From: Flavobacteriaceae bacterium F08102
Lineage (GTDB): Bacteria; Bacteroidota; Bacteroidia; Flavobacteriales; Flavobacteriaceae
Reading direction: 5' to 3'
DNA length: 64,000 bases
NCBI GenBank assembly: GCA_023015935.1
Contig: JALKAY010000003.1
Span: forward strand, 124,001-188,000
The notes under the pieces are model-generated. The model was not told the origin of the DNA. It searched no databases and saw nothing but the letters and a program-made list of their open reading frames with translations. Position 1 is the stretch's first letter; every line of letters begins with the position of its first letter. The translations under genes and the position numbers were made by a program. Shown in pieces: positions 47,620 to 55,347 of this stretch.

Positions 47620-48516
47620 ATGACCTATAAGGATTATTACAAAATTTTAGGGCTAACGAAAAATGCAACGCAGGCTGAAATAAAAAAAGCATATCGGAAA
47701 TTGGCTCGAAAATATCATCCTGATGTGAATCCAGGAGATGCTGAAGCTGAAAAGAAATTTAAAGAGATTAATGAAGCTAATGAGGTGTTAAGTCATCCAG
47801 AGAACCGTAAAAAATATGATCAGTACGGTAAAGATTGGCAACATGCTGAAGCCTTTGAAAAAGCCCAACGTGAACAGGGTCATCAGCGAAGTAGTTATTC
47901 AAGACAAAGTGGCGGAAGTGCCGGGTTTGAAGAGGATGATTTTTCTGATTTTTTTAATGCGATGTTTGGTGGAGCTGCTGGAGCAAGAAGGGGTGGTTCA
48001 GTCAAATTTAGAGGACAAGATCTCAATGCGGAATTGCAACTTACTTTACGAGATGTCTATACAACACACAAACAAACCTTAACCGTAAATGGAAAGAAAA
48101 TTCGCTTGACAATTCCTGCGGGGGTTAAGGATGGTCAAACGATTAAGATTAAAGGACATGGTGGACCAGGTGTTAATGGTGGGCCTAAAGGGGATTTACA
48201 TATTACCTTTAGAATTATTAATAATACACCATTTAAACGTCACTTAAATAATTTATACACGACGGTTGAAATTGATCTATACACGGCCATATTAGGGGGA
48301 GAAGTATTGGTAAATACCTTTGATGGAAAGGTGAAATTAAAAATTGCTCCGGAAACACAACACGGAACCCAAGTTAAACTCAAGGGAAAAGGGTTTCCAA
48401 TATATAAAAAAGAAGGGCAATTTGGAGATCTATACGTAACCTATGAAATTAAAATACCTACGAATTTAAGTACTGAAGAAAAGAAATTGTTTGAACAACT
48501 CGCTAAATTAAGATAA
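47620..48516 (+). CDS. cbpA: DnaJ-class co-chaperone CbpA
   Basis: CbpA is a DnaJ paralogue that stimulates DnaK and can bind DNA. The 298-residue protein has a J domain (residues 4-69) with the HPD motif in [10 protein letters not shown], a Gly/Ser-rich linker (about 85-125), and two C-terminal beta domains ([17 protein letters not shown]; then [20 protein letters not shown]). It lacks the zinc-finger region of DnaJ, as expected for CbpA. It is followed one base later by cbpM, its known modulator. Confidence 0.93.
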
Positions 48517-48517
48517 A

Positions 48518-48811
48518 ATGGACCAACGCTATATTTCGATAACCGAATTGTGTAAATACTACGAATTAGAAATTACCTTTTTTGATGAACTGCAAAATGC
48601 GGGCTTGTTAGAATTAACAGTTATTGACCAAGCTCCATACGTAGAAGAAGAACGTTTAGGCGATCTAGAGAAAATGATTCGAATGCACCGTGAATTAAAT
48701 GTGAATTTAGAAGGGATAGATGTTGTGTTAAATCTCCTAAATAAAATGGATGAAATGCAACAAGAACTAACCAATTTGCATACCCGATTAAGGCTGTATG
48801 AATCTAAGTAG
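48518..48811 (+). CDS. cbpM: Chaperone modulator CbpM
   Basis: A 97-residue MerR-like single-domain protein which, in the known family, binds the J domain of CbpA and blocks its action. It has the typical form: ISITELCKYYELEITFFDEL near the N-terminus, the middle DLEKMIRMHRELNVNLEGID, and a C-terminal coiled coil (MDEMQQELTNLHTRLRLYE). It follows cbpA by one base, the usual arrangement. Confidence 0.92.
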   Translation: MDQRYISITELCKYYELEITFFDELQNAGLLELTVIDQAPYVEEERLGDLEKMIRMHRELNVNLEGIDVVLNLLNKMDEMQQELTNLHTRLRLYESK

Positions 48812-49038
48812 GTTGATCCAAAAAAATGTCCAAATTATTTTTGTCAATGTAAAATGATGTACATTTTTTAAAAGGAGGAACGCTTATTTTAAACTAAGGC
48901 AAAAGCAAGTAACGCTTGGAGGGGGGAATTGACGTATTGCGTAAATGCTAATTTAACAAGGCTTTCACACAAAGAAAATATAATTTGATTATCTTGTTTG
49001 GGTCTTTAAAAGGTTTTTTCGGAGTTTAATTTACGCAT

Positions 49039-50130
49039 ATGATTCGCAAGTATTTCCTGTTGATTCTATTATTTTTTTCATCACTAACTTGGTGCCAAAA
49101 GGGGTATCACTATTCCAAACCAAAACAAGTAAATGATGGATGGCATACCAAGAGTTTAAATTTGGCGGGCTATGACACTTCTTTAGTTGCTAAACTCTTT
49201 AATCAATTAGCAACAGGCAAGCACAAATTACATAGCGTATTGGCCGTGTATAAAAATTCCTTAATGCTTGAGGAATATTTGAATGACCAACGCCCAGAGG
49301 AATTACACGATATGCGGTCGGCAACGAAAAGTGTCATCGCTATCTTAGTTGGGATAGCTATCGATCAAGGCCTTATAAAAAGTGTAGAAGATGTTATTTC
49401 ACTGTATCTTAAAAAACCAATTCCCAAAAAAAATATAGATCCGAGAAAGGATAGAATTAGAATTAAAGATTTGTTAACCATGTCTTCGGGACTCGATTGT
49501 AATGATTGGGATCAAAAATCTGTAGGTCAGGAAGATAAGGTTTATCGAAAAAAAGATTGGTTACAATTTACATTAGATTTACCCATGTTGCATGAACCAG
49601 GTGAAGTAAGTGCATATTGTACCATGGGGGTAGTTTTATTGGCAGAAATTCTTCAACAAGTTTCTGGTAAGTCGCTCGATGAATTTGCCAATACCTATTT
49701 GTTTGAACCCTTAGGGATTGTTGATGTTAAATGGGGTCATACAAATTCCGAAGAGGTTATTACCGCGGGGAAACGCTTGTATATGACGCCTAGAGATATG
49801 GCTAAAATAGGGCAACTGGTTTTAAATAGAGGAAAAAATAACAAGACGCAACTTGTCAGTGCGGTTTGGATTGATACCATGCTGACTAAACACACTGCGA
49901 TAAGTACCATCGATTATGGGTACTTATGGTGGAACTTACCCTTTAAATTCAATAATAAACAAGTGCTTACGTGGGCGGCCATGGGAAATGGAGGACAATA
50001 CATCATGGTTTTTAAAGAGCTAGATTTGGTCATTGTCTCTACAGGTGGAGCCTATAATTCAGCAGATGATCAGTTGGCATTTGCGATTGCACAAGACGTC
50101 CTACTTCCTACATTTATGAGGAAAAATTAA
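49039..50130 (+). CDS. Serine hydrolase, class C beta-lactamase fold
   Basis: A 363-residue exported protein (signal MIRKYFLLILLFFSSLTWCQ). It has the beta-lactamase/penicillin-binding fold: nucleophile S94 and K97 in MRSATKSV, then the second motif at Y193 in SAYCTMG, where YxN would be expected but YCT is seen. The third motif is not a clear KTG; the late AAMGNGGQYIMVF stretch contains a GNGG turn, as in EstB-type esterases. Activity is more likely esterase or D-aminopeptidase than beta-lactamase. Monocistronic. A cysteine at position 19 makes a lipobox possible but weak. Confidence 0.85.
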   Translation: MIRKYFLLILLFFSSLTWCQKGYHYSKPKQVNDGWHTKSLNLAGYDTSLVAKLFNQLATGKHKLHSVLAVYKNSLMLEEYLNDQRPEELHDMRSATKSVIAILVGIAIDQGLIKSVEDVISLYLKKPIPKKNIDPRKDRIRIKDLLTMSSGLDCNDWDQKSVGQEDKVYRKKDWLQFTLDLPMLHEPGEVSAYCTMGVVLLAEILQQVSGKSLDEFANTYLFEPLGIVDVKWGHTNSEEVITAGKRLYMTPRDMAKIGQLVLNRGKNNKTQLVSAVWIDTMLTKHTAISTIDYGYLWWNLPFKFNNKQVLTWAAMGNGGQYIMVFKELDLVIVSTGGAYNSADDQLAFAIAQDVLLPTFMRKN

Positions 50131-50329
50131 GACCATGACCATTACACAAATTTTATTGGGACAAACTTTTAGTAATATTTACACCATTTTTTGATTCACT
50201 TCACCTAATTTTATGCTTTTGTAAGTGCTGTTATTGGATTGAAATTAACGTCAGTTTTCAAAATAGATACATGTTTGAAATGTATTTAAAAGTGCTTCGT
50301 CTAAGTATTCACAAACCGTTTAAAATTTG

Positions 50330-51499
50330 ATGATTTCCGAAACAACACCTCCTGATTTTTTACAAAAATTCATAGAGACACGCGCGTATTCTGTGACCCT
50401 ATGTGAGCCGTTGAATGCAGAAGATTATATTCCGCAACCACGCGATTTTGCCAGTCCACCTAAGTGGCATTTGGCGCATACTACTTGGTTTTTTGAGGAG
50501 ATGATTTTGTCAAAATATGTAGCTGATTACATAGTTTTTCATCCGAAGTTTAGTTTTTTGTTTAATTCATACTATCAAACTATCGGTGATCGCGCAGTAC
50601 GTGCTGAACGAGGTGCCATTACTCGACCGAATGTGGATGAAGTCTATGCTTATCGTGACTATGTCAATGAGCATATGTGTCGTTTGCTGACTGCAAAACC
50701 AAGTCAAGCGGTTTTAGCTTTGGTAGAGTTGGGTATTCATCATGAACAGCAACATCAAGAATTGTTGTTAACGGATTTAAAACATACCTTTTCGTTAAAT
50801 CCAATTTTTCCAGTGTATCGAACGGATTTTAACCTAGTTGATACTGTGAATCAAACAGATGGATGGTTACGCATAGAGGAAGGTTTATATGAAATTGGAT
50901 ATGAAGGGGATGGATTTTGTTTTGATAATGAACTAGGGAAGCATACTGTGTTTTTACCTTCTTTTGAGATTTCGAAAAGCTTAGTTACCAACGGAGCGTT
51001 TATAGAATTTATGGAAGACGGAGGGTATGAAACTTTCAGTTATTGGTTAGACAAAGGGTGGACTTGGGTAAGAGAACAGCAAATTTCTCGGCCCTTGTAT
51101 TGGTATAAAATTGAGGGAAAGTGGTATCATTATACCTTAGCAGGTCTCGTGCCTGTCAAGATGGATGCTATTTTGAGTCATATTTCATTTTACGAAGCCC
51201 ATGCGTTTGCTACGTGGAAAGGGATGCGTTTACCCACAGAGTTTGAATGGGAAGCAGCCGCTTCAAAAATGAATTGGGGACAGCGTTGGGAATGGACTTA
51301 TTCGGCCTATTTGCCTTATCCTGGGTTTAAAATAGATGATGGTGCGGTGGGAGAATACAACGGGAAATTTATGTTAGATCAACTGGTGTTACGCGGGAGC
51401 TCAGTCGCAACACCAGCAGGCCATGAACGAATTACATATCGAAATTTTTTTCCTGCCAATACAAGATGGCAGTTTAACGGAATACGCTTAGTCAAGTAA
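50330..51499 (+). CDS. egtB: Ergothioneine biosynthesis protein EgtB
   Basis: EgtB is the non-haem iron enzyme that joins a thiol to trimethylhistidine (hercynine) with oxygen to form the sulfoxide precursor of ergothioneine. The 389-residue protein has the DinB-like helical domain with iron ligands at H50 (WHLAHTTWFFE), H138 and H142 (IHHEQQHQELLL). The formylglycine-generating-enzyme-like C-terminal domain follows (GYEGDGFCFDNELGKH, GMRLPTEFEWEAAA, the closing NFFPANTRWQFNGIRL). Start ATG 50330 directly follows a TTG. It opens the operon egtB-egtD-racemase-like. The sulfur donor, gamma-Glu-Cys or Cys, cannot be assigned by eye. Confidence 0.93.
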   Translation: MISETTPPDFLQKFIETRAYSVTLCEPLNAEDYIPQPRDFASPPKWHLAHTTWFFEEMILSKYVADYIVFHPKFSFLFNSYYQTIGDRAVRAERGAITRPNVDEVYAYRDYVNEHMCRLLTAKPSQAVLALVELGIHHEQQHQELLLTDLKHTFSLNPIFPVYRTDFNLVDTVNQTDGWLRIEEGLYEIGYEGDGFCFDNELGKHTVFLPSFEISKSLVTNGAFIEFMEDGGYETFSYWLDKGWTWVREQQISRPLYWYKIEGKWYHYTLAGLVPVKMDAILSHISFYEAHAFATWKGMRLPTEFEWEAAASKMNWGQRWEWTYSAYLPYPGFKIDDGAVGEYNGKFMLDQLVLRGSSVATPAGHERITYRNFFPANTRWQFNGIRLVK

Positions 51500-51502
51500 C
51501 CT

Positions 51503-52450
51503 ATGATAGATCAATTTAAAACAGATGTTGAAGCCGGGTTGTCACAAGAACCCAAAACCATTTCTTCCAAATATTTTTATGATGCAAAAGGAGATGCGCT
51601 GTTTGTCGAAATCATGAAAATGCCAGAATATTATTTAACGCGTGCTGAATATGAAATTTTTAGCCAACAAACCGAGGCTATTATTGCAGCTTTAGGCTTA
51701 GATAAAAATCGTTATTTCGAATTAATTGAATTGGGGGCTGGAAACGGTCAAAAAACCAAAGAATTATTAAAGGTACTTGTAAATAAGGAGTTTGACTTCG
51801 CTTATTTTCCGGTAGATATTTCAGCAAATGCACTGTCAAAATTAGAAGATGATTTGGCTGAGGAAATTCCATTGTTGAATGTGCAAACTCAACAAGGTGA
51901 ATATTTCAAAGTTCTCTCACGTATCCGCGAAACACCTTTTCGAAAAGTTATTCTGTTTTTGGGCTCCAATATAGGCAATATGAAAGATGAGCTCGCTTCA
52001 AAATTCATCTATCAGCTTGGAGCGAATCTTCGTCCACAAGACAGGGTGTTTTTAGGGGTAGATTTGATTAAACCAAAATCAATCATTTTACCTGCATATA
52101 ACGATAAGGCAGGTATAACTGAAGCATTCAATCTAAATTTACTACATCGAATAAATCGTGAATTGGATGCTAATTTTGATCTTGATAAGTTTAGACATTG
52201 TCCAGAATATTCTGAAAGGGATGGTATTGCGAAAAGTTTTATTGAAAGTAAAATTGATCAAACAGTGACGATTAATAAAGTCAATAAAACCTTTCAATTT
52301 AAAAAAGGGGAACGAATTCACACTGAAATTTCAAGAAAGTATAATGATGAAATTATAAAGAAAATTCTGCTGAGTACTGATTTTGAAATTCTCGATAAAT
52401 TAACGGATAGTCATGGGTATTTTGCCGATTATGTCTTGAATAGAAAATAG
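51503..52450 (+). CDS. egtD: Histidine N-alpha-methyltransferase EgtD
   Basis: EgtD trimethylates histidine to hercynine with S-adenosylmethionine, the first step of ergothioneine synthesis. The 315-residue protein has PKTISSKYFYDAKGDALFV and MPEYYLTRAEYEI near the N-terminus, the SAM motif LIELGAGNGQKT (about residues 75-86), and FLGSNIGNM further on, all typical of EgtD. It starts 3 bases after egtB, so co-transcription is near certain. No egtA, egtC or egtE homologue is recognisable nearby. Confidence 0.95.
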   Translation: MIDQFKTDVEAGLSQEPKTISSKYFYDAKGDALFVEIMKMPEYYLTRAEYEIFSQQTEAIIAALGLDKNRYFELIELGAGNGQKTKELLKVLVNKEFDFAYFPVDISANALSKLEDDLAEEIPLLNVQTQQGEYFKVLSRIRETPFRKVILFLGSNIGNMKDELASKFIYQLGANLRPQDRVFLGVDLIKPKSIILPAYNDKAGITEAFNLNLLHRINRELDANFDLDKFRHCPEYSERDGIAKSFIESKIDQTVTINKVNKTFQFKKGERIHTEISRKYNDEIIKKILLSTDFEILDKLTDSHGYFADYVLNRK

Positions 52451-52451
52451 C

Positions 52452-53129
52452 ATGATGAACAATACATTTGCAGGGTTAGGTTTGTTAGGGTTGGGGGCTA
52501 GATCAACGTTGTTTTATATTCATGAACTCAATGCGATGTACAACCAACAAAAAGGTGGTTATAGTACGTGTCCATTTGTAATGGTTAATACAGATTTTAA
52601 TGAGATTAATCCGTATCTGCCGAACCAATTTGATCAATTAGAAGCTTCTTTAAGTAATATTTTAACGCGTTTTGAAGAGTTAGGTGTTGAGCAATTGTTA
52701 ATTCCAAACATCACCTTACACGAAACGATTGATCGCCTTGCACCTCGTATAAACATTATTCACCCCATACATTTGGCGATAGAACACTTCCGTGAAAGCG
52801 AACAAGACCAAGCGGTTTGTTTTGGTTCTAGCTATACCATGACCGCTCCGTATGTACAAGGGTATTTTTCAGGAGCCGGAATTACTGTATTAGCGCCAGA
52901 AGAATGCGATAAAACAACTATTGATAACTTTCGTAAAAAAGTCTATTTTGGACAAGAATCAATGCGGGATATTGAGGAGTTTCAGCACTTGGTAGCACAG
53001 TATGCTTCCCAAACAAATGTGCTCATCGCCTGTACAGAATTATCATTGTTTGTGCCTAAAGGTATTCAACAGGTATGTGATATGGCGGAATTGCAAATTG
53101 AGAAGGCGGTGAAGTGTTTAACAGACTGA
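52452..53129 (+). CDS. Aspartate/glutamate racemase superfamily protein in the ergothioneine operon
   Basis: A 225-residue protein with the Asp/Glu racemase fold. The second catalytic-cysteine motif is present (LIACTELSLF, C194). The first, usually CNTxH, reads PNITLHE with Asn at the cysteine position, so only one of the two acid/base cysteines remains and ordinary racemisation is unlikely. It starts one base after egtD and the operon ends at the following terminator. I infer a step linked to ergothioneine, for example processing the sulfoxide intermediate or an amino-acid by-product. There is no direct proof. It could instead be an unrelated isomerase or hydantoinase relative. Confidence 0.82.
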   Translation: MMNNTFAGLGLLGLGARSTLFYIHELNAMYNQQKGGYSTCPFVMVNTDFNEINPYLPNQFDQLEASLSNILTRFEELGVEQLLIPNITLHETIDRLAPRINIIHPIHLAIEHFRESEQDQAVCFGSSYTMTAPYVQGYFSGAGITVLAPEECDKTTIDNFRKKVYFGQESMRDIEEFQHLVAQYASQTNVLIACTELSLFVPKGIQQVCDMAELQIEKAVKCLTD

Positions 53130-53241
53130 TGGATGCTGTTGTGTTCTGTTTTCAGTTGAACTACATCAGAAATTGAAAAAAATGAGAAGGTTAATCAGGG
53201 AGGTTCATCGTTCATAAGGTGTTTCATCGTAACAAAAACAC

Positions 53242-53288
53242 AAAAAGTGACAAGGATATACAACGGTTGTATATCCTTGTCACTTTTT
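53242..53288. terminator. Bidirectional terminator with a 23-bp perfect palindrome
   Basis: Two exact 23-base arms around a single G, containing AAAAAGTGACAAGG and its complement. It lies between the convergent ergothioneine operon and the Xaa-Pro peptidase-like gene, with A-run and T-run on opposite ends. It is the longest perfect inverted repeat I found in the window. Confidence 0.85.
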
Positions 53289-53313
53289 TAATGTAATGAA
53301 CTATTATTAATTT

Positions 53314-55146
53314 TTATTCCATAGCAGCTTTCACTGCTGCTGCACCACCCACTACGGGGAGCGTAATACTTGTCGCATCTAAATTAACGGAAAGTACTGT
53401 ACCGGGTTTTGGCCAGAGGGTAAATTCTTGATCACTCGAAAAAATCATTAACCCAATTTGTTGCCCTTTAGGAATAATTTGATCATCAGGTTGAAGGTTA
53501 AAAGAGAATTCATAAAATTGGCCTGGCTTTAGTTTTTCACTGGTGCGTAGGGAGTTGTAATTCTGTGGATCTGCCCATCCGCGGGTGATTATATTATCGG
53601 TAATTTTTGAATCCTTGGTTTTTTCTTGCCAAGGTAATGACACTAAGTATACAGATAAATTGGCAGCGGGTTTACTATTGGTCAATTTTATCTTGATGGT
53701 GGAAATTCCAGAAAGATGTAGATCCTGTTTTAAGATTGGGGTTACGTACAACAATCGGTGCTTTGAGTTGGTAGCGTTTGCTAGTTCAGCACTGGAGATA
53801 GTAACATCATCGATTAGGTTTTCTTCTCCTTGTTCAGTTACTTTTTGTGTAGTTAATGAACCAGCCATTGGAGCTCCTTTGGTGAGATAAAAAGTAATCG
53901 GTTCTGCATTCGGATTTGGATAATCTGCATAGGGGGTGGGATTTTCCCGATCGTCATGTTCTCTTACAATCCACGCTTTATTTTTTTCGTTTTCAACTCC
54001 GTTGTCAATTCCAAAAAGATAGTGGCTAAACCAACGATTCATCATAGTGACAGGCGGGGGACCACCATGCCCGTTTTGGTGATAATAAATTTTGGTTTCT
54101 AGACCCATTTCTTGTGCTTTTTTATAGATGCGATAGGAGTGTTCTGGCATTACATTCCAATCGTTAAAGCCATGTGACATAAATAGGGCTGCTTTCATGT
54201 GTTTCATTTGGTTGAGGTAATCTCTTCCTTCCCAAAAATCGTTATAATCGCCAGTTTCTCGATCTTGATATTTCATCAGTATTTCATCTCGGACACGTTT
54301 GTTGTTTCCAGCACGTTTGCTTTCATCTCCACTGTGGATAAAATCGTATAATACATCGATGTCTTCTCCTAAATATCCACCGGGACTTCTCACCAGTCCA
54401 TTGGAACGGTAATAATGGTAATAGGAGGTGTTTGGTGCAATGGGGATGATCGCTTCAAGACCTTCAACCCCTGTCGTTGCAGCAGCAAGAGGAATGGTAC
54501 CATTATAGGAGGTTCCTGTCATTCCTACTTTACCGGTAGTCCAATAAGCTTTTACTTCTTCGTTACCATCTGGCGTTGTGTATCCCTTTGCCCGTCCGTT
54601 AAGCCAGTCGATAACTGCTTTAGGAGCCAAGGATTCATTTTCGCCACCAACGGTTGGGGACCCTTGAGATAGTCCTGTGCCAGGAGAGGAAGAATGTACC
54701 ACAATATACCCTCTAGGTACCCAAGTACGGACTTGTGAATTAGCGATAATGGGGCGTTTTCCACGTCGTTGTACTTCGGGGTGGACTCTTGTAGGTGGTG
54801 TATCTCCTAATTCGTGTTCAACATTCCACATAACGCCTTCACTCAAGGCGGCAGTACCAGCAAAATAGGGACTAGATTCATAGATTACGGGTAGTTTTAA
54901 GCCTTCTGTTTCGGTTTGAGGAGGTCTTGTTACATCTACATGCATACGGTCAGGTCTCCCATCGGCATCTGAATCAAAGGTAGTTTCTACCCAAAGGTCA
55001 TGGCGAATCCAAGTGTCCGGATTGTTAAAGGCTTCAACAATTTGTGCTTCACCATTTTTAAAAACGGGTACTGTTTTAGTTTGAGCATAATTTGTACAAG
55101 CAAAAAATCCGAATGCAAGTAGTGAAATTTTAAAGGATATTTTCAT
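53314..55146 (-). CDS. Exported Xaa-Pro dipeptidyl-peptidase/CocE-type hydrolase
   Basis: A 610-residue secreted alpha/beta hydrolase (S15/CocE-NonD family). The signal peptide MKISFKISLLAFGFFACTNY includes ACT, so a lipoprotein form is possible. The nucleophile S213 lies in GMTGTSYNGTIP, the acid in SHGFNDWNVMP, and the His in YYHQNGHGGPP. A C-terminal beta-sandwich (ITFYLTKGAPMAG onward) is typical. Start ATG 55146 is chosen because the 60 codons upstream are low-quality. It would cleave X-Pro dipeptides or esters outside the cell. Monocistronic, with the terminator shared with the egt operon. Confidence 0.92.
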   Translation of the reverse strand: MKISFKISLLAFGFFACTNYAQTKTVPVFKNGEAQIVEAFNNPDTWIRHDLWVETTFDSDADGRPDRMHVDVTRPPQTETEGLKLPVIYESSPYFAGTAALSEGVMWNVEHELGDTPPTRVHPEVQRRGKRPIIANSQVRTWVPRGYIVVHSSSPGTGLSQGSPTVGGENESLAPKAVIDWLNGRAKGYTTPDGNEEVKAYWTTGKVGMTGTSYNGTIPLAAATTGVEGLEAIIPIAPNTSYYHYYRSNGLVRSPGGYLGEDIDVLYDFIHSGDESKRAGNNKRVRDEILMKYQDRETGDYNDFWEGRDYLNQMKHMKAALFMSHGFNDWNVMPEHSYRIYKKAQEMGLETKIYYHQNGHGGPPPVTMMNRWFSHYLFGIDNGVENEKNKAWIVREHDDRENPTPYADYPNPNAEPITFYLTKGAPMAGSLTTQKVTEQGEENLIDDVTISSAELANATNSKHRLLYVTPILKQDLHLSGISTIKIKLTNSKPAANLSVYLVSLPWQEKTKDSKITDNIITRGWADPQNYNSLRTSEKLKPGQFYEFSFNLQPDDQIIPKGQQIGLMIFSSDQEFTLWPKPGTVLSVNLDATSITLPVVGGAAAVKAAME

Positions 55147-55347
55147 TGAGAATCGTGTGTTTAAAAAGTAAAGGTACAAAAAGACAACTGATAAGGGATG
55201 TAATTCTCTATAGGAAAAAGGGTAGGATGAAGTGAATAAAGCCTTTGGGAGTAGAAACAGTATGGTGTGAGTTATGTAAAGGATATGGATTATTGAAATC
55301 CTATGTGCTACCTTGAGGTTGTTCAATGGAGACAGATGGAGGTTTGT

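Follow-up and report, generated by a model that had tools for sequence, protein, structure and literature searches.

An Asp/Glu-racemase-fold protein encoded behind egtB and egtD is a candidate PLP-free lyase for ergothioneine synthesis

The egtB-egtD-rac operon

Ergothioneine is an antioxidant. The window analysed here is a stretch of 64,000 nucleotides from Flavobacteriaceae bacterium F08102 (contig JALKAY010000003.1), in which the ergothioneine genes egtB and egtD are followed by a third gene, hereafter rac. The features of the locus are as follows.

50330..51499, + strand: egtB, 389 aa; sulfoxide synthase of the cysteine-using (Chloracidobacterium) type (TIGR03440, 512.9 bits; PDB comparisons)
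51503..52450, + strand: egtD, 315 aa; histidine N-alpha-methyltransferase (PF10017, TIGR03438, PDB 4uy6)
52452..53129, + strand: rac, 225 aa; egt-linked protein of the Asp/Glu racemase fold, proposed PLP-free C-S lyase (fold and linkage)
52704..52721, + strand: PNITLH motif, Rac residues 85-90; Asn86 is the first catalytic position, and Ile87 stands where relatives have Asn
53031..53033, + strand: codon for Cys194 of Rac; equivalent to EcL-DER Cys197 by alignment and, as judged from the shared fold, probably to MurI Cys185
53242..53288, no strand assigned: perfect 23-bp inverted repeat, resembling an intrinsic terminator on both strands

A single base separates the egtD stop codon from the rac ATG. 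The three genes form one tight operon closed by a perfect hairpin, and the inverted repeat is the likely operon end; matches to sigma-70 promoters were not in excess (13 versus 11.9 in shuffled sequences). The coordinates given in the initial annotation for egtB, egtD and a racemase-fold third gene one base downstream were right, and the fold was borne out by an AF2 model and Foldseek.

EgtB passes the cut-off of TIGR03440 (512.9 bits against 360), whereas on SenA, the model for selenoneine synthase, it reaches 334.9 bits and stays below the cut-off of 420. The donor type was judged through alignments to EgtB entries in the PDB, which gave E-values of ~1e-116 for 8qf6, 6qki and 6o6l versus 2.9e-25 for the EgtB of 4x8b. 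The nearest type is the Chloracidobacterium thermophilum enzyme (6o6l, 6qki), described as preferring cysteine as the donor (PMC10903977). On these alignments the window EgtB is assigned to the cysteine-using type, such that EgtC should not be needed. EgtD passes PF10017 (325.2 bits, cut-off 23), scores 290.8 bits on TIGR03438 against a cut-off of 290.9, and aligns with PDB 4uy6 at an E-value of 1e-50.

The initial annotation also saw no egtA, egtC or egtE, in agreement with our scan of six neighbouring proteins (48518-55326), in which none of the three was present. Across the organism's own genome, the best match to the EgtE model TIGR04343 scored 89.6 bits, where the cut-off is 400. In 14 control genomes the same model returned sub-cut-off matches only, in all 14 at an E-value of 10 and in none at 1e-30. 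The idea of an EgtE encoded elsewhere in the rac genomes gains no support from TIGR04343, a model without a positive control here.

Linkage of rac to egtB-egtD and exclusion of a class-V PLP gene

Among 299 genomes of the same family, the close relatives of rac form a sharply separated group of 20 (the window gene included), all of which lie directly behind egtB-egtD. A second collection, drawn from genome contigs with an alignment as the query (a single-protein query gave no loci), comprises 80 rac loci, 73 of them in the order egtB-egtD-rac. Twelve of the 80 are common to the first 20, leaving 88 distinct loci, and the order is found in 81 of these, spread over five Bacteroidota families and extending to Pseudomonadota. 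Three rac loci have no egtB or egtD nearby, and in each case egtD is present elsewhere in the same genome. The top matches across the phylum also lie behind egtBD (4/4, with G444 the only new genome), whereas the next-best racemases have no egtB, egtD or PLP gene within 1.5 kb (0/36). Over 71 loci, the distance correlation is 0.82 for EgtD-Rac and 0.74 for EgtB-EgtD. A search at 1e-40 of 274 genomes from the class of Pseudomaricurvus found rac solely in the Pseudomaricurvus genome itself. The linkage of egtBD to rac is far above chance. The assignment of the third gene to the ergothioneine operon in the initial annotation, open to the objection that the gene might lie mostly away from egtBD in other genomes, therefore holds in the genomes searched.

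Many marine bacteria with ergothioneine genes have a conserved rac right behind egtB-egtD. Redox-type genes recur near rac, encoding NAD(P)-binding proteins at 22 of 76 loci and an FMN reductase at 12 of 76.

Because TIGR04343 also misses the flavobacterial class-V PLP gene, we used this gene itself as the query for EgtE-like enzymes. The family includes 127 genomes with egtD: 20 carry rac, 87 carry the class-V PLP gene (within 10 kb of egtD in 75 of these), none carries both and 20 carry neither. The PLP gene was likewise absent at 1e-40 from 29 further rac genomes (0/29). This exclusion tracks two EgtD clades, so that few independent events lie behind it, and the value of 1.4e-12 attached to it ignores the clade structure. 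One genome nested in the rac clade (G184) has the PLP gene and no close rac. The PLP gene, which is present as well in 32 genomes that lack egtD and gives no match to TIGR04343, is itself only a presumptive local EgtE.

Seven of the genomes with neither gene (G121, G013, G244, G253, G025, G033 and G259) branch within the rac clade. The 20 loci of this kind contain, up to 3.5 kb from egtBD, 38 frames of 250-479 aa. Seven of these are alpha/beta-hydrolases fused to OsmC, and 30 of the other 31 were scanned against Pfam, the one omitted being the counterpart of a scanned glycosyltransferase. The sole PLP enzyme among the scanned frames is of the cysteine-synthase type (PF00291, locus L233); class V or other PLP lyase types were absent from the scanned frames of this length at the 20 loci. 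In these genomes the C-S step either falls to a lyase encoded elsewhere or requires no gene of its own and, given that they make up 20 of the 127, ergothioneine may be made normally without rac.

Fold and active-site residues of Rac

The AF2 model of Rac (pLDDT 95.7) has the two-domain, pseudosymmetric alpha/beta fold of the Asp/Glu racemase superfamily. Its best Foldseek match is the E. coli L-Asp/Glu racemase EcL-DER/YgeA (5ell; E-value 2.6e-14, TM 0.79), and the near-identical entry 5hra gives a TM of 0.85. Rac and EcL-DER (5ell, 5elm, 5hra) are alike in fold, in retaining the second catalytic cysteine and in lacking the first. They share only 22-23% identity, however, and Rac differs in its tie to egtBD and in the residues Arg161 and Gln215, found where related racemases have Tyr/Phe and His, respectively.

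The two-cysteine pattern of racemases is absent from Rac, which has Asn86 (aligned with EcL-DER Thr83) at the first position and Cys194, within the motif CTELS, at the second; each is invariant across the 75 aligned Rac members. The one-cysteine description in the initial annotation is thus correct for the two catalytic positions but not for the protein overall, which contains six cysteines. Absence of the first cysteine is also ruled out as a special mark of Rac, as Ala, Thr or Ser occupies this position in 36 of 36 aligned rows of the nearest racemases outside the egt group. In 26 of the 36 a Cys lies one place before, where Rac has Pro. All 36 have Asn at the position of Ile87, equivalent to Asn84 of EcL-DER, so that the Asn86-Ile87-Thr88 stretch of Rac departs from the residue pattern of EcL-DER and RacX. 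The egt-specific marks of Rac are PNIT, Arg161, Gln215 and others.

In profile scans Rac matched only racemase models, each below its curated cut-off (TIGR00035, 54.7 bits against 93.1; the CuyB cysteate racemase model NF052483, 42 against 190; PF01177, 23.7 against 31; and a further model, 40.9 against 417), and gave no match to PLP families. At 1e-5, 74 of 75 Rac members match TIGR00035, and the same proportion matches the CuyB model. CuyB, the second-best NCBIfam match after TIGR00035, acts, by the name of its model, on an alanine bearing oxidised sulfur at the beta carbon.

Other members of the superfamily catalyse reactions besides racemisation. Arylmalonate decarboxylase (2vlb, 3eis), which has one catalytic Cys, shares the fold with Rac at a TM of only 0.52-0.54 and carries out a decarboxylation. 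The algal DMSP lyase Alma1, placed in the Asp/Glu/hydantoin racemase superfamily, cleaves a C-S bond to yield DMS and acrylate and is reported to require two cysteines, C108 and C265 (PMC10349084). Alma1-type enzymes are defined there by a canonical cysteine in each of two motifs, DCGF/NCGF and ECTE/ECTQ, in place of which the window Rac has PNIT and ACTE. Set beside Rac by its published description as opposed to its structure, Alma1 is further unlike it in being eukaryotic and in acting on a sulfonium substrate.

A possible role for Rac in the last step of ergothioneine synthesis

We lean towards the view that Rac is a PLP-free hercynylcysteine-sulfoxide lyase, and thus an analogue of EgtE, the PLP-dependent C-S lyase for this sulfoxide, which it would resemble in reaction and pathway position despite belonging to an unrelated family. 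The direct basis for this is the operon, the predicted fold, the conservation of residues, the linkage and co-inheritance, and the complementarity with the PLP gene; the substrate, the reaction and the role of Asn86 are what we infer. The operon would then encode a three-enzyme ergothioneine cassette, in which EgtD would convert histidine to hercynine, EgtB would join hercynine oxidatively to free cysteine to form hercynylcysteine sulfoxide, and Rac would take the place of EgtE. The Cys194 thiolate would remove the alpha proton from the L-cysteine moiety and, there being no acid thiol on the Asn86 face, the carbanion would expel the sulfoxide sulfur by beta-elimination instead of racemising. 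The products would be ergothioneine sulfenic acid, converted to ergothioneine via thiol reduction, and aminoacrylate, which would give pyruvate and ammonia.

Analogy with related enzymes suggests that a racemase-fold protein keeping the L-face base could beta-eliminate the sulfoxide product of EgtB. Cys185 of glutamate racemase is described as deprotonating L-Glu, one-cysteine mutants of that enzyme as beta-eliminating chloroglutamate, and a Cys-to-Thr change as turning hydroxyproline epimerase into a dehydratase (PMC8142540), although the dehydratase and EcL-DER have each lost a different cysteine of the catalytic pair. Alma1 offers a further precedent, though one that depends on both of its cysteines. 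The one-cysteine enzymes EcL-DER (Thr83) and RacX (Ala79) are nonetheless reported to be working racemases (PMC12838360, PMC8142540), and loss of the first cysteine therefore does not by itself imply a lyase. The suggestion in the initial annotation that the third gene could take over a missing step is thus weakened in its one-cysteine argument but gains from the genome context, and the complementarity with the class-V PLP gene strengthens the idea of a missing EgtE. Overall, gene context strongly supports the operon membership of rac and a possible missing-step role. We consider evenly balanced the wider account in which a cofactor-free C-S lyase of the racemase fold, once an amino-acid racemase, replaces EgtE in a number of Bacteroidota families and has spread to Pseudomonadota in a cassette with egtB-egtD.

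To our knowledge, the known ergothioneine pathway needs inversion at no step, and this counts against an alternative in which the C-S bond is cleaved by an unlinked lyase and Rac, as an amino-acid racemase or epimerase like EcL-DER or RacX, assists the pathway, for instance by correcting the handedness of a precursor or intermediate. We judge this unlikely: the fold, the nearest structures, the matches of nearly all members to TIGR00035 and the CuyB model, and the reported racemisation by enzymes that pair Cys with Thr or Ala (PMC12838360, PMC8142540) are in its favour, but the window Rac misses all curated cut-offs and carries Ile87, Arg161 and Gln215 in place of Asn, Tyr/Phe and His, and a racemase role would not explain why rac genomes lack the PLP gene. 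Less likely still is a task further along the pathway or on one of its by-products, in which Rac would reduce or trap ergothioneine sulfenic acid, remove aminoacrylate or recycle ergothioneine that has been damaged. The product freed by EgtE is described as a sulfenic acid that has yet to be reduced (PMC4493562), and the recurrence of redox-type genes near rac would fit; a reductase built on a racemase fold and an L-face base would, however, be odd, and the complementary pattern of rac and the PLP gene would again go unexplained. It is improbable that the cassette leads to another end product, such as a modified ergothioneine or a relative that contains selenium, whose amino-acid side chain Rac would act upon: EgtB does score on SenA and rac accompanies one EgtD clade, but the SenA score stays under a cut-off that EgtB clears for TIGR03440. 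Finally, a chance neighbour with no ergothioneine role, as the genomes within the rac clade that kept egtBD without rac might suggest, is rejected as very improbable by the 20 of 20 family relatives, the 81 of 88 distinct loci over families and phyla, and the co-occurrence with egtD of even the three rac genes away from egtBD.

If Rac is the PLP-free sulfoxide lyase proposed here, the last step of ergothioneine synthesis could be carried out by an enzyme that needs no PLP and has no name among current family models, giving another way of releasing the ergothioneine sulfur. The operon would constitute a compact three-gene cassette for ergothioneine synthesis, and Rac a natural case of a one-thiol racemase fold redirected to elimination.

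Organisation and conservation of the rac operon

The three genes lie head to tail, with gaps of 3 bases between egtB and egtD and 1 base between egtD and rac, the gene for the racemase-fold protein Rac. An inverted repeat begins about 110 bases 3' of rac, and the next gene past it, encoding a Xaa-Pro dipeptidyl-peptidase, has the opposite orientation to rac.

50330-51499, + strand: egtB; TIGR03440 match of 512.9 bits (cut-off 360)
51503-52450, + strand: egtD; passes PF10017 widely and falls 0.1 bit under the TIGR03438 cut-off
52452-53129, + strand: rac, third gene of the operon
53242-53288: perfect 23-bp inverted repeat, with a terminator score on both strands

The genome is 3.3 Mb in size and 99.5% complete. 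On the 5' side of egtB are a serine hydrolase of the beta-lactamase/penicillin-binding fold (49039-50130) and, at 47620-48811, a DnaJ/CbpA-like gene and, behind it, a MerR_2-family gene, which together we take to be a CbpA-CbpM-like pair.

We searched 299 genomes of the same family for relatives of Rac at a threshold of 1e-5, and 65 had some match. Twenty of these, the window included, form a separate group (E of 6e-37 or better, the 19 others 34-48% identical), after which the next match is at 4.7e-16 and 26% identity. All 20 rac genes lie on the same strand behind egtB and egtD, with an egtD-rac spacing of -4 to 7 bases in 18 and of 20 and 65 bases in the other two. Across the phylum (395 genomes) there were four matches at 1e-90 or better, three of them (G000, G119, G125) already within the family 20, and egtB and egtD adjoin in all four; the fifth-ranked match drops to 1.5e-26. 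The 1.5-kb flanks of the 36 next-best racemases from both searches contained no egtB, egtD or PLP gene (the class-V PLP enzyme discussed below).

A profile-guided scan of the genome_contigs set confirmed 103 relatives, of which 80 were retained, from Flavobacteriaceae, Weeksellaceae, Crocinitomicaceae, Saprospiraceae and Ichthyobacteriaceae in the Bacteroidota and from Pseudomaricurvus, Endobugula, a Thiotrichaceae, Ghiorsea and Hellea in the Pseudomonadota. The order egtB-egtD-rac on one strand was found at 73 of the 80, about a dozen of which have other genes or longer spacers inside the cassette. Twelve scanned loci duplicate DNA already in the family set, and the order holds across both sets at 81 of 88 distinct loci, near-duplicates counted. 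The seven exceptions are three Flavobacterium loci with rac alone and egtD elsewhere in the genome, one egtB-rac locus whose 2.4-Mb assembly yielded no egtD, two loci of Kaistella, nearly identical to each other, that show egtD-rac but have no egtB inside the locus, and a Brumimicrobium oceani locus (L138:3765-4979) where egtB and egtD are apparently cut and fused into one 405-aa frame directly before rac, which could be an assembly error.

Pairwise distances over 71 loci correlate at 0.82 for Rac-EgtD and 0.74 for EgtB-EgtD (shuffled maxima 0.20 and 0.16), and on this basis the three genes travel together. At the Thiotrichaceae locus (L139:3368-5657), rac follows an EgtD 38% identical to that of the window, and egtB is partly masked; here rac may have joined an egt operon a second time and independently, although the EgtD branch is very long. 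It is very probable, and well supported, that rac is a conserved third gene in one branch of ergothioneine operons. Among the open-licence papers retrieved by full-text searches on ergothioneine genes and racemases, no title or abstract opening reported an egt-linked racemase-like gene.

Redox-type genes near rac, named by the Pfam match of one representative of each family, comprise NAD(P)-binding proteins (22 of 76 loci), FMN reductases (12), ferric-reductase-like membrane proteins (12) and disulfide oxidoreductases (6); a SnoaL-like gene is present at 14.

L116:5749-6624, L130:4204-4935, L165:1222-2103 and L119:4279-4923: neighbours of the rac cassette, namely NAD(P)-binding (NmrA-like), FMN-reductase, SnoaL-like and ferric-reductase-like membrane genes

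The FMN reductase sometimes sits between egtD and rac. A pyridine-nucleotide-disulfide oxidoreductase lies 5' of rac at L183 (2504-3865), where it is placed between egtB and egtD, and at five other Flavobacterium loci.

Fold and active site of Rac

Rac is a protein of 225 aa, and its AlphaFold2 model, built from a 75-sequence alignment, has a pLDDT of 95.7 and a pTM of 0.91. Its best Foldseek matches are the E. coli L-Asp/Glu racemase EcL-DER (5ell, 5elm and the near-identical 5hra; TM 0.79-0.85 by query length, 22-23% identity), followed by further aspartate racemases, by glutamate racemases and, as a weak match, by arylmalonate decarboxylase. The window protein scores under the cut-off of every racemase model (TIGR00035 54.7 against 93.1, CuyB 42 against 190, PRK10200 40.9 against 417, PF01177 23.7 against 31); at a threshold of 1e-5, rather than at model cut-offs, 74 of 75 Rac members match TIGR00035 and 74 match CuyB. 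Coordinates, fold and linkage thus bear out the initial annotation of a racemase-fold third gene behind egtB and egtD.

Residues L14, T19, F49, N53, L56, P57, P85, N86, T88, H90, R161, C194, E196 and Q215 are invariant across the 75 aligned members. Rac shares the second catalytic Cys with 35 of the 36 nearest non-egt racemases. The first had been described as changed to Asn: Asn86 is indeed present, but Cys as the starting state does not hold, the 36 racemases having Ala (22), Thr (7) or Ser (7) there and never Cys. Since these relatives already lack Cys at position 86, the change is better put as Ala/Thr-to-Asn together with loss of the neighbouring Asn, position 87 being Asn in 36 of 36 racemases and Ile in all 20 family members; in RacX of a Flavobacteriales strain, the corresponding residue, Asn80, and the Thr after it were found to be important (PMC12838360). 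Rac further differs at positions 85 (Pro; Cys in 26 of 36), 161 (Arg; mostly Tyr or Phe), 198 (Ser; Pro in 31) and 215 (Gln; His in 27, gap in 9). PNITLH- and ACTELS-type motifs are both kept at 80 of 80 scanned loci, a figure partly built in because the scan was seeded with such peptides; PNIT(L/I)H and C(T/S)ELS also occur in all 20 family members, which were found without a motif seed. One-Cys relatives are real racemases, which counts against reading Rac as a lyase; judged by its residues, the pocket looks rebuilt for another substrate.

Complementarity with a class-V PLP gene

EgtD is present in 127 of the 299 family genomes (E up to 1e-20), and in many of these a class-V PLP enzyme (PF00266; for example L067:2963-4045) adjoins egtBD. 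With the G211 copy as query at 1e-40, this PLP gene was found in 119 of the 299 genomes, 32 of them without egtD. Among the 127 egtD genomes, 87 have the PLP gene, 20 have rac, none has both and 20 have neither; the PLP gene lies within 10 kb of egtD in 75 of the 87, and within 1 kb in 63 of those. At the same threshold it was absent from all 29 further rac genomes, none of which shares a rac locus with the family 20, although two have a match of 24-27% identity at about 1e-20. Thus rac stands where the PLP enzyme is missing. We infer that the PLP gene is the candidate EgtE of this family, a label qualified by its occurrence in genomes without egtD and by the lack of a match between the flavobacterial gene and the EgtE model TIGR04343.

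In a 73-row EgtD tree, the rac-linked EgtDs group with nine nested rac-less ones in a clade of 52 rows (100/98), apart from a 12-row clade (100/98) that holds the PLP-linked EgtDs; a single rac row, that of the Thiotrichaceae, falls outside the rac clade on its very long branch. The two clades imply few independent events behind the exclusion, so its figure of 1.4e-12 should not be read literally. From the tree, rac seems to have been lost several times. Of the rac-less genomes, G184, nested beside Aureibaculum flavum, carries a PLP gene of 54% identity that lies 26 kb away from egtD, and G178 has a 36% identity match on a different contig. At 1e-40, seven rac-less clade members lack a PLP match: G121, G013, G244, G253, G025, G033 and G259. 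In G121, where egtB and egtD appear intact, a weak rac-like stretch just after egtD (L082:3655-3771; 39 residues, 41% identity, E 9e-5) is probably a rac remnant.

The 20 loci with neither gene contained no substitute-lyase-like neighbour except one cysteine-synthase-type PLP gene. An alpha/beta-hydrolase fused to OsmC lies beside egtBD at 9 of 29 loci examined (L080, L081, L224, L227-L230, L232, L240), 7 of them among these 20.

A possible lyase role for Rac

The window EgtB matches structures 8qf6, 6qki and 6o6l (the last named as Chloracidobacterium EgtB) at E of about 1e-116 and 4x8b at 2.9e-25, and is thus far nearer to the 6o6l group. According to a review, Chloracidobacterium EgtB prefers cysteine and mycobacterial EgtB gamma-Glu-Cys (PMC10903977). 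An EgtB of the cysteine type would yield a product with free amine and carboxylate, suiting a racemase fold.

EgtE cleaves the sulfoxide, releasing ergothioneine sulfenic acid along with pyruvate and ammonia, after which the sulfenic acid is reduced by a thiol (PMC4493562). In glutamate racemase, Cys185 deprotonates L-glutamate, and one-Cys mutants act by chloride elimination, the Cys that remains deciding which 3-chloroglutamate reacts; human hydroxyproline epimerase becomes a dehydratase through a Cys-to-Thr change (PMC8142540), although the base replaced there is the opposite one to that of EcL-DER. Since cofactor-free racemase enzymes are capable of such eliminations, we propose that Cys194, taken as the equivalent of Cys185, would deprotonate the L-cysteine moiety of hercynylcysteine sulfoxide, whereupon the sulfur would leave. 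The redox-type neighbours might, at a guess, help to reduce the sulfenic acid. Given the 20 egtD genomes with neither enzyme, a dedicated neighbour gene is not indispensable, and an unlinked lyase could serve in rac genomes. Where rac is present, the best single explanation, which we favour with modest confidence, is that Rac acts as a PLP-free lyase.
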